Below are positions 1-17,588 of a stretch of 20,000 nucleotides of DNA, one piece after another. A model generated the notes under the pieces. The model was not told the origin of the DNA and ran no database searches. It saw nothing but the letters and a program-made list of their open reading frames with translations. Position 1 is the stretch's first letter, and each line of letters begins with the position of its first letter. Position numbers and translations under genes: made by a program. The stretch is from Zygnema cylindricum (lineage: Eukaryota; Streptophyta; Zygnematophyceae; Zygnematales; Zygnemataceae): the NCBI GenBank assembly GCA_037447655.1, contig JBBHKE010001891.1, positions 236,639 through 256,638 on the forward strand, in the 5' to 3' direction.

Positions 1-514
1 GAGTTTTTACAGTTGTCATTAAAATGGACAAAAGTTTGTATACTATAGTTATTAGAGACAACTTGATAATAGAAAAAGAAAAAAAATTGATAATCTCAAT
101 TATGGCGATATAGACTGAATAACCGGTGATGCTTAGTTTCTCTTTTTTTTTTAGTATCTTACCACAATTTTTTTTATAACTTGTCTTCTGAGCCTTAATC
201 GGATAGGCTTTTTTTTCGTGAATTCACGTCAATTATTATTATTATTATGGTTCTTGATATATGAGTGGTTGCGATTAATGGCTGGTCACGCTTTACTGTC
301 TTTTTTTCCCTTTGTTTTGTCAGGTCTTGCTTTTAAGGATGATGTGGATCCTGTCCTATCGTAGCTTGTTTTTCTGTATTTATTAAACTTTTTTTTATAC
401 TTATGATGTTCTATGTTAAATGTCTATGTCTATGTATATTATTTCGATTTTTATGTATATACATATATATATGATATTCGACAAATTGTCGTTATAGTGT
501 AGTGGGTATGGAGT
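1..514. repeat. left arm of perfect mirror (non-complementary) repeat
   Basis: Base i equals base 1419-i for every i from 1 to 514, compared row by row without a mismatch or gap. The partner arm is 905-1418. This is reversal on the same strand, not a reverse complement, so the arms cannot pair as a hairpin. The arm is AT-rich, with T runs, a short ATT microsatellite near 232-247, and an embedded dyad CGTGAATTCACG at 217-228. It starts at the first base of the window, so its true outer end may lie outside. No coding content was recognised. See the findings for why this is anomalous. Confidence 0.98.
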
Positions 515-904
515 ATGTCCTCCACTCCGTCTTCAAAAGGAAGCCGCCGTTGGGGACGCCGTAAATTCCGCCGCTCGCTGCTAGTGCGTTGAACTTTTCA
601 GTTTTTTAGGGTATTGAATATTTAAATTTTTTGAAATCTGTAAGTCAAAATAAGGTACGAATTTTAAAAATTCCGAAATCGTTTGATGCGCACTTTACGT
701 AGTAATCGTTAGTTTAATCCGTGCGTGTTATGCGCATGGGACTTCTATGCTAAATACTGGTTTCCTTAGGTTTTAATAGGTTTGTTTTTTGGGGTTTTTC
801 AGGGTTTTTTTTTACGGTTTATTAAGGTTTTTTTTAAGGTTTTTAGGCTATGTTCTCCAAACGCTGAGTATGTATTGTTGATTAGTCTTTATACCCAACT
901 CAAT
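515..904. other. 390-bp spacer between mirror arms
   Basis: The mirror relation stops sharply: 514 matches 905, but 515/904, 516/903, 517/902 and 518/901 all mismatch. The spacer has a GC-richer patch around 540-590 (several GCCG motifs) and, from about 770 to 845, runs of T mixed with GGTTT and GGGTTTT. I found no gene, and the two halves of the spacer are not mirror or reverse-complement copies of each other. Confidence 0.8.
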
Positions 905-1418
905 TGAGGTATGGGTGATGTGATATTGCTGTTAAACAGCTTATAGTATATATATACATATATGTATTTTTAGCTTTATTATATGTATCTGTATCTGTAA
1001 ATTGTATCTTGTAGTATTCATATTTTTTTTCAAATTATTTATGTCTTTTTGTTCGATGCTATCCTGTCCTAGGTGTAGTAGGAATTTTCGTTCTGGACTG
1101 TTTTGTTTCCCTTTTTTTCTGTCATTTCGCACTGGTCGGTAATTAGCGTTGGTGAGTATATAGTTCTTGGTATTATTATTATTATTAACTGCACTTAAGT
1201 GCTTTTTTTTCGGATAGGCTAATTCCGAGTCTTCTGTTCAATATTTTTTTTAACACCATTCTATGATTTTTTTTTTCTCTTTGATTCGTAGTGGCCAATA
1301 AGTCAGATATAGCGGTATTAACTCTAATAGTTAAAAAAAAGAAAAAGATAATAGTTCAACAGAGATTATTGATATCATATGTTTGAAAACAGGTAAAATT
1401 ACTGTTGACATTTTTGAG
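905..1418. repeat. right arm of perfect mirror (non-complementary) repeat
   Basis: Reading this arm from 1418 down to 905 on the same strand reproduces 1-514 exactly. It therefore carries the reversed versions of the same landmarks: the dyad becomes GCACTTAAGTGC at 1191-1202 and the ATT microsatellite lies near 1172-1187. Open frames here are chance readings of reversed DNA. My hand count of CpG and GpC (11 and 9 in the left arm, so 9 and 11 here) does not show which arm is the original. Confidence 0.98.
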
Positions 1419-3275: not shown

Positions 3276-4203
3276 ATTTCCGAAAAAAATTGTATACCCT
3301 ACAGCGAAAACTAAACAAAATTTACGAAAAGTATAGAATCGACGATTACTACGTAGAAATGGGAAAAAGGTTGAACTTCGCATGAATCGAACAACTATGG
3401 TTTTTTGTTACGGTGCTCTTGTTCTCTTCACGGTGTCCATGAGTAGATGATTTACAATCATACTTTTATAATGAAGCTTAATATTTTAGTTTGGTGATTT
3501 GTTTTTCAATTATTGGTAATTGACTATTCTCACCAATACTGATAAATCACATGCAATGATGATCCGTGGATTGAAGTCTGATTAGCTATACCATGTCAAG
3601 CATGCTTTACTGTGTCATCTTTGTATTTCAAGGCTCTGTTTCTGAAAACCGGAAACCTTTCAATATACTCATATGGGCTAACTAGATGGTACAAAGCTGC
3701 AATAGTATCCTTCTTGCCAGTTTTAATGACCAAATTCTGCCCATTGTTACATTTGTTTTCTTCAAATTTCAGCTTAATGACTCGATGTGTCAATTTTAGT
3801 ACTGGGCTCCAAATAATAATGAGCAAAATAAAAATGACATGGTAAGCGAAAAATACACATTTCCAGTACCTTTCCAATACAGATACCCAATATAACCACT
3901 TGCTTCCATCCACAAAGTGACATGAATATATACATCAACAACACAAATTGAGGAATTATGGTAACACATGGTAGATTACACAACAGTTACTGATCTCTTC
4001 TAGTAATCGTACTTTTGCAACAACACACTCATATTGACTTTGCCTTTTAAAAAAAAAGCCACAACCTACGTCTCCATGTGAAACTGCCTTATAATGACAA
4101 CAAAGGCATGCTTTCTCCATACCCTAAGCATCAACGTTTCACATGTCCGTACATGTCCCTACAGATTCCCACATGTCTTTATATGTCCCAAAACGACCTA
4201 CAA
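3276..4203. other. 3' flank of RPN5 and intergenic DNA
   Basis: No gene was recognised. The part nearest 4203 should include the 3' untranslated region of the minus-strand RPN5 gene, though I could not place a poly(A) site. At 4141-4190 the motif ACATGTCC recurs several times with small changes (ACATGTCCGT, ACATGTCCCT, ACATGTCTTT, ATATGTCCC), a short degenerate repeat just past the RPN5 stop. Confidence 0.5.
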
Positions 4204-14657: not shown

Positions 14658-14816
14658 TCGGAGCCATCCAACCTGCAGCAGAACACTTCACAAAGCCTCC
14701 TGAGGAGCATCTTCGGAAGTCCTCTCGAAGACACTCCTCCGAACCCTCGAGGAGTTTTACACTTCACTTTCTCTCATTTTCCTTGGCATCTCTTTTTGTC
14801 AACAATTCACGTAGCC

Positions 14817-17588
14817 ATGGCTGCTCTCACAGCCGCCTCTACCTCCATGGCCGTCTCAAGCAGTAAGACTGCAGTTATTGGAAGCCGTGCAGAGGTTTCT
14901 TCTGGAAAGACTATGTCAGTTCGATTTGCAGGAGCTTTCTCAGCTCCTGCCCTCCGAGCGACTCAGTTTGGACAGTCTCTTTCCAGTAACGTTGGAAGCA
15001 GGCGTGTGTTGACAGCTGTTCAAGCTTCTGAAGTGGAAGAGGAACTTGATTACGCAGACGCTCCTCTCTCTCCTCCTGATGCTGGCACCAAGCTCTATGT
15101 TGGAAACTTGCCATTCAACGTGGATAGCGCAGGACTTGCTAAGTACTTCTCTGAGGCTGGTGTTGTTGACCAAGTAGATGTAAGCGCTTCTCAAACCTAA
15201 TCTTTGATTTTAAATTTCTTGTTTTTTTGTGCTAATTAGGTCCTTTCTGCCCTTTTAACTGTGGAATTTATTTTTCTAATCATAGACCCTTTATCAATCA
15301 GTGTCCATCACGATACCTGTAATTACCGACTGAACTTTCTGATATATTCAAGATTTTGTGAGTCCAGGGGTTCAAAGGTATTTTTTACGTTTTAAGCCCA
15401 GTGAATATGAATTTCAATTTTGGTTTAGCAGCAATGTGAATGCATAATCTGAGGGAATCTAAGGAACAATTCCTTTTGCATCTTCAGGTTATTTATGACA
15501 GGGAAACTGGCAGAAGCCGTGGGTTTGCTTTTGTAACAATGGCCACAACCGAGGATGCTGAGGCAGCCATTCAGAGCTTGGACGGCAGGGTAAGCAATTC
15601 TCTAATTTAGTGTCTTATTTGAATATCTTCCGCTTCAGTTTATCTTGCTGAAGTCTGCCGAAGTCCTTAGTCTAGAGCAATTTCCTTTTTTTCTATCTTT
15701 TTGTTTAATTATTACCCGGTAATGTCTTTGCTCGATTGTCTTGTCTAGGGTTATATGATGTGAGATGTGACGGCTTTGTTTGTCATTTTTTACCCTGCTT
15801 ATTGTGCAACTGAGCATGCTTTCTTCAGCTGAAGACGTGAATTTGTTTGTCACTCTGTAAGCTGCTTGTCAGTTCTTCACAGCTTAGCCTACAATCAAGC
15901 AGGTTGAGCTCAGCTATACACGTATAATTTGGTCGTGGGTGGTACTCTCCAGTGTACAACTGAGCAAACTGAGGTCACTTGTGCTCGTTTGTTTTTCAGT
16001 TGTAGACTCTGAGTTCAATTGTACACGCGTTAGTGACTTGTATTTTGTATACATGCTACGTGTGTGTCAGCTGTATACCTAAGCTGTTTGTTAGTCGTAC
16101 CTTGTTTGCTTAACCCAGCTGAACCTGCGCAACTGAACATGTGTACAGCTGCCAGCGTTGAAGCAGCTGCTCTTAAAAGGCTCTGGCATGCTTGTTAGCT
16201 GTTCTGAATCAGCTTTCTTGTTGCAGTTAACTACCTTCAGCTCTTTTTCAACGTTTTTATTCAGTTGTAACTGCCTGTGTGAACTGATTTTTGCTGTTTT
16301 TATGGCTTACTCTGCTTTTTTTATTTCAGTATTTTTGCTGTTTTTTCTATCAAAGCAGAAGCTTTAGCTGCCTTTCCAATAATGTGTACATTTTCAATGT
16401 GGGCTGTGTTAGCCTTCGCTGCTTGTAATCATTACAGCTATTTTTTCTTCTTTGATTCTCATTACTATGCTGAGTTACATTTTTTAGCAGGAGTTGCGTA
16501 AGGCCTAAGCTGTTTTTTTGGCCCGTGATTGACTTTTCACTGGTTGTTGTACTCAGGAACTTGGCGGAAGGACCCTTAGAGTAGGGTTCCCTGTTGCTAA
16601 AAACGACCGACCACCAAGAACTGACCGACCACCAAGAGCAGCTCCTTCAGGACCTCCAGGAGTTGGCAACAAATTATATGTTGGAAACTTGTCTTGGGGA
16701 ATGGACGACTATGGTCTTGCCGACCTTTTCTCTGAGTTCGGACAGGTTATTGAAGCTAAGGTTGTGATGGACCGCGATACTGGCAAGTCGAGGGGATTTG
16801 GATTTGTCACTTTTGGCTCATCGCCAGAGGGCTCGCAGGCTGTGAACGCTTTGGATGGAGCGGTAAGCATTTTATCAACCTTTTATGTTACATTTATTTC
16901 AACCTTTTATATCTTTGTAATTTTGTGACTGTGTGATAACGGCTTTGGTTGAACATTTTCGGTGCATCTTTGATGTTGTTCTCCGGTAATGTAATTCCCA
17001 GTAAATTTCTTTATTTGCAGTCTTTTTTGGTATACACATCATCTCAAAAATTCCGAGTGAAAAGATAAGAGAAGTTGCTAAAACTATAATTTAGACTTTC
17101 ACTGTAACGCTGTCTTTGAAACTTAGCTTGACAGTCAATTTACGTGCTGTTTTGATACATTCGATTCCTTTCTATTTTCCACTCTATCTTGCTGATTTTA
17201 AATCATTTGAGTAAAGTCAATGCCAGTAAGACCTAGTGGGCATTATGTTTTATTTTTTATTGGAATCTCGTTGTGTCCTTTCAATATAGGTAATCATTAT
17301 TGGGGTTGTTTTTGGTGAACATTATCTTTTTTAGAACAAATTGTGCTGATAAAAGTGTAAGGTAGAGCCATTTACTTTCACTGAGAACTAAATGGTGAAC
17401 TGTAGGTTTGTGCGTCATTGCCATTTAAGACACTAAAGTTATTTTGATCCCTTTATTAGATTTCTTCAGTTACAATTTCTTTTTTTTTCTGATTCCGTCG
17501 TGAATTCGCTGTTTTGCAGGAGGTTGACGGTAGGACTATTCGAGTTAGTGTTGCTCAGGATAAAGCTCCTGGTCGTGGCCGCTATTAG
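14817..17588 (+). CDS. chloroplast ribonucleoprotein with two RRM domains (cp29/cp31-like), 4 exons
   Basis: cpRNPs are nuclear-encoded stromal proteins that bind chloroplast transcripts and help stabilise, process and edit them. The exons are 14817-15179, 15488-15589, 16557-16862 and 17520-17588, joined in phase 0 by three introns with GTAAGC donors. The product is 279 aa and ends at TAG. Residues 1 to about 66 are Ser/Ala-rich with few acidic residues, as in a chloroplast transit peptide; a short acidic stretch (EVEEELDYADA, 72-82) follows. RRM1 spans about 92-170, with RNP2 LYVGNL at 93-98 and RNP1 RGFAFVTM at 132-139. A Pro/Arg linker (171-192) holds a repeated DRPPR. RRM2 spans about 194-270, with RNP2 LYVGNL at 195-200 and RNP1 RGFGFVTF at 234-241. 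The protein ends in a GRGRY tail. The start ATG has good context (GTAGCCATGG) and is the first ATG not followed by a stop. The length fits the cp28/cp29/cp31 group; which member it is cannot be settled here. Confidence 0.93.
15780..16450. repeat. degenerate CAGCTG/CAACTGA-rich region in intron 2 of the RRM gene
   Basis: Variants of CAGCTG, CAGTTG, AACTGAG and GTGTACA recur every 20-50 bp through most of this 967-bp intron, without a clean period. It may be a decayed tandem repeat. Frames open across it (for example near 16158-16367) carry no recognisable protein. Confidence 0.45.
16605..16637 (+). repeat. 18-bp in-frame duplication in the inter-RRM linker
   Basis: GACCGACCACCAAGA occurs at 16605-16619 and again at 16623-16637, 18 bp apart, giving two DRPPR motifs in the linker. 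The spacing keeps the frame, so linker length could vary between relatives by whole units of six residues. Confidence 0.75.

Follow-up and report, generated by a model that had tools for sequence, protein, structure and literature searches.

A perfect 514-base mirror repeat beside an assembly gap in Zygnema cylindricum, very probably an error of partial gap filling

Results and Discussion

The window analyzed here, a 20,000-nucleotide stretch of contig C1418 (C1418:236639-256638) from an assembly of 352.8 Mb in 2689 contigs, begins with a perfect same-strand mirror repeat that is, very probably, an in silico error of partial gap filling and not real DNA. We read it as an assembly artefact because the mirror begins at a gap edge at base 1, because the same pattern recurs at two other gaps, and because a dispersed repeat is cut at 514/515, precisely where the mirror starts.

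Geometry of the mirror

Window bases 1-514 are identical to bases 1418-905 read in reverse on the same strand. In a pairwise comparison of the letters, base i equals base 1419-i with 0 mismatches in 514 pairs, bearing out the perfect 514-base mirror that had been claimed in a sequence-only reading of this DNA. When the arms are compared directly, 358 of 514 positions differ, and when they are compared as reverse complements all 514 of 514 differ; the arms are therefore related by same-strand reversal. Their composition (A 0.265, C 0.119, G 0.171, T 0.446) is that of a mixed-base sequence. Between them lies a spacer of 390 bases (515-904) in which mirroring gives scattered matches only, in agreement with its earlier description as unrelated sequence. 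The features of this part of the window, all given on the + strand, are the following:

1-514, +: left mirror arm, which we take to be a false extension beside a run of 1129 N; 514/514 bases are mirrored and the N run ends just before base 1
515-749, +: end portion of a dispersed repeat, cut at 514/515 where the mirror starts; it has matches in the genome, and 7/7 copies continue to the left
750-904, +: remaining unmirrored spacer, the flank past the repeat end; it has no mirror pairing and is absent from the right flanks of the seven copies
905-1418, +: right mirror arm, taken as the native source of the left arm; it is free of N into 1419 onward and lies outside the cut repeat

The spacer part 750-904 has short, weak matches elsewhere in the genome.

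Mirrors at the edges of N runs

Window base 1 is directly preceded by 1129 N (C1418:235510-236638), placing abnormal sequence immediately against an assembly gap, as would be expected of a gap artefact. The left arm begins at the first known base to the right of this run, and the sequence directly upstream, checked for a longer mirror, consists of N. From its odd length, we infer that the 1129-N run is a native assembly gap.

Recurrence was surveyed in 210 kb of this one 358-kb contig (C1418:79000-288999), a region containing six N runs of 10, 2500, 1129, 7500, 1911 and 10 bases; the 7500-N run starts directly at the window end. Complex mirrors were screened for with exact 18-base seeds, a dinucleotide entropy of at least 3.0 bits, and non-overlapping arms no more than 3000 bases apart. 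This screen yielded exact pairs of 514, 246 and 30 bases, with spacers of 390, 104 and 341 bases, respectively, and all three start on the first base to the right of an N run (1129, 10 and 10 N). The second perfect mirror pairs C1418:282290-282535 with 282640-282885 (3291-3536 with 3641-3886 of L032), and the third pairs C1418:89622-89651 with 89993-90022 (623-652 with 994-1023 of L043), each after a 10-N run. The inner end of the 30-base mirror adjoins a GA-rich simple repeat. That complex exact mirrors of at least 18 bases number just three in 210 kb, with the window mirror the longest, supports the earlier judgment against chance.

Grouped by the mirrors at their edges, the six N runs comprise three with a complex mirror, one with simple-repeat mirrors only, and two with none. 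At the right edge of the 1911-N run, the only mirrors are formed by TATGG repeats (one of 61 bases that begins 38 bases in from the edge, another of 37/38 at the edge itself) and are uninformative. The 2500-N and 7500-N runs have no mirror at their edges; we suspect that these round-numbered runs are not true gaps. The left edge of the 1129-N run carries a TC-microsatellite mirror (82/85 bases). By a simpler measure, an exact 12-base mirror within 1.5 kb is present at the right edge of four of the six N runs (one of these in TATGG repeats), as against 204 of 17973 random positions.

Mirrors become common once the complexity filter is lifted, with 5432 pairs in the 210 kb at a 20-base seed. The 60 longest of these unfiltered pairs consist of the 514-base mirror, the 246-base mirror and, for the rest, simple repeats, the longest simple one listed being 71 bases. 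In a mirror screen of 44 loci, the filter of which excluded the 514-base mirror itself, mirrors of 22-27 bases, mostly with overlapping arms, were seen off gaps at 8 of the 44 loci besides L043 (L009, L020, L022, L027, L034, L035, L038 and L039); short or overlapping mirrors of this kind are excluded by the complex-mirror screen. Recurrence at other gaps and not elsewhere, which a gap artefact should exhibit, accordingly holds for complex mirrors only, and on one contig.

A dispersed repeat cut at the junction

The spacer bases adjoining the left arm (515-749) belong to a repeat with at least 39 other long matches in the genome (40 of 731 candidates scored), which start at 514-517 or 558 and end at 747-757. 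Seven close copies were read (L010-L016), which are 98.3-99.6% identical over 235 bases. In all seven, the repeat runs on to the left of the position equivalent to 515; there, the nearest 90 bases are near-identical among the copies, and longer stretches align in every pair. BLAST of the left arm of the window, in both readings, against the leftward continuation of these seven copies gave no match. A piece has thus interrupted a sequence that was due to continue: the seven copies run past 515 and the window does not, and none of the copies read ends at 514/515. Since the repeat continues leftward in the copies and is replaced by the mirror in the window, it would be the left arm that is false. 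It may also be that this copy of the repeat was cut by chance exactly at 514/515.

Past 749, the flanks of the copies differ from one another, except for a 224-base match (75%) between L015 and L016; 749 is therefore the repeat's own end. Because the flanks past this end mostly differ between copies, the repeat is probably a mobile element.

One copy, L013, has a tandem array (49 bp x 7.0) whose start lies 54 bases past the junction point. Tandem arrays are places where short-read assembly tends to fail, and the array past the junction suggests why the assembly broke there. The window would be expected to continue into an array like that of L013, and the mirrored arm stands in its place. Among the 25 of 47 inverted-repeat pairs listed for L013, inverted pieces of the 49-bp tandem unit are also seen near the array.

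Assignment of the native arm

The most convincing reading is that the left arm was falsely added to fill part of the gap and that the right arm is native flanking sequence. The reverse assignment, in which the left arm is native and the right arm false, is unlikely, as it is on the left that the repeat breaks off and the right arm continues free of N into 1419 onward.

With ~250 kb of training sequence, a k-mer direction test did not point to the right arm of the 514-base pair as the native one (LLR of -1.4, -3.5, -3.2 and -1.2 for k = 4-7, with 257-261 of 277 native control blocks positive). The test has little power in AT-rich simple sequence, yet its outcome gives the proposed reading no help. 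For the 246-base pair, the same test tilts towards the right arm, with values of +2.4 to +7.4 (223-236 of 277 control blocks positive). Applied to the right arm of the 514-base mirror, an earlier test on 52 kb, in which the controls lay inside the training text, gave -0.7 (k = 2) and +2.0 to +13.8 (k = 3-6). Apart from the self-match, a genome search with bases 1-513 gave a single weak match (77% over 410-477), as compared with five weak, AT-rich matches within 942-1023 for the right arm; this tilts toward the right arm as native, although the sequence concerned is simple. The 6510 bases to the left of the gap and the 2361 bases to its right have no 16-mers in common, either direct or mirrored.

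A proposed gap-filling mechanism

We propose that a gap-filling program would have set out to lengthen the right-hand contig on its left side, into the gap, and that the repeat would have blocked its passage. The program would then have started 390 bases inside the contig and walked to the right through sequence already known. Each walked base could have been prepended, or the extension could have been reversed without complementing; both yield the same letters. The result would be that base 514 equals base 905, base 513 equals base 906, and so on until base 1 equals base 1418. With paired positions i and j summing to 1419, a leftward reading from 514 does list 905, 906 and onward to 1418 in order. 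The false extension would have reduced the N run, down to 10 N in the two other cases. Such a walk would account for the perfect identity of the arms, their position at the right edge of the gap, the variable unmirrored spacer, and the ending of the arm at the gap.

The two N runs of exactly 10 bases would fit a minimum-gap setting, and 10 is the default of the Pilon option --mingap. Command lines in two papers include this option (PMC5765664, PMC7202002), and in another project PBJelly was run with minGap 10 (PMC6829135). Pilon is described as reducing gaps by flank extension (PMC4237348). The mirror error is not typical of Pilon as tested in that study, because 13 of 14 partial fills were judged error-free there (PMC4237348). 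The faulty partial fills described in that paper, which compares Pilon, IMAGE and GapFiller, resemble our case in that misplaced sequence is added at a gap edge, at repeats, and the gap is shrunk but left unclosed; in contrast to our case, the errors in its passages on such fills are wrong repeat copies and wrong closures, and those passages mention no flank copied in reverse without complementing (PMC4237348). Among the papers listed in searches of the open-licence PMC literature, no title or opening of an abstract concerned reversed, uncomplemented copies at gap edges.

Alternative explanations

The gap edge, the two other gaps and the cut repeat together indicate an assembly artefact, and they support the sequence-only reading insofar as it held artefact or placement to be much likelier than a new process; within that claim, neither deliberate placement nor a new DNA process gained any support. 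Reversal of a string without complementing at a step other than gap filling, such as contig building, scaffolding or database export, could yield identical letters. We nevertheless consider it improbable, as a mis-oriented whole piece would not also persist in its correct reading 390, 104 and 341 bases away, nor would it directly follow an N run in all three complex cases. A mirror planted on purpose is a very improbable source: although a planted test would resemble a perfect long mirror, elsewhere on the contig, beyond the window, N runs carry mirrors that differ in length and spacer. The whole-genome record also contains the same letters as the window, a weak argument against planting given that both have the same source.

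Extremely improbable, in our estimation, is a real DNA process that made a same-strand reversed copy, for instance by templating between parallel strands. The letters of the mirror are indeed perfect, but each of the three complex mirrors begins on the right edge of a gap, the repeat is cut at the junction, and the arms are without any difference. To our knowledge, no polymerase chemistry makes same-strand reversed copies. A real mirror duplication is rejected on the grounds of the gap edges and the cut repeat. One could suppose that an undescribed form of cellular templating made the reversed copy and that assemblers break beside such copies, hence the gap-edge position; to this version we assign the slightest chance of all, the one-sided position (right edge, first base, 3/3 complex cases) and the cut repeat arguing strongly against it.

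The mirror also differs from known kinds of mirrored or reversed DNA. H-DNA-forming mirror repeats have the same same-strand mirror symmetry (PMC9171763, PMC11879447), and those named in PMC9171763 are polypurine-polypyrimidine; the window arms, in contrast, are mixed-base, 514 bases long, separated by 390 bases, and situated on a gap edge. Arms consisting wholly of purines or wholly of pyrimidines, the mark of H-DNA, are not what the window contains. Reversed ('chiral') synthetic DNA, such as the sequin controls and the reversed HPRT1 locus, is natural sequence that was deliberately reversed without complementing. The window mirror is like it in being reversed without complementing, but the window piece copies a near neighbour at a gap edge, and similar pieces of other lengths are found at two other gaps.

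Significance and other features of the window

The mirror is not a biological feature, and it changes nothing in biology. Its value is for quality control, where a long exact mirror of complex sequence beside an N run can serve as a simple sign of faulty gap extension. With three such mirrors in 210 kb of one contig, the assembly may contain many more, and annotation, primer design, repeat surveys and genome-trained sequence models can all be led astray by false flanks of this type.

Elsewhere in the window, searches against Rfam and for tRNAs gave no matches. Two adjoining 19-base units, 95% alike, are found at 1766-1803. The C-terminal end of a 134-aa open frame on the + strand (14796-15200) matches the beginning of an RNA recognition motif (Pfam RRM_1, E 0.00025); this frame is perhaps the first exon of a gene, and its N-terminal part presumably resembles a plastid transit peptide, a hint that the genome belongs to a plant or another green lineage.
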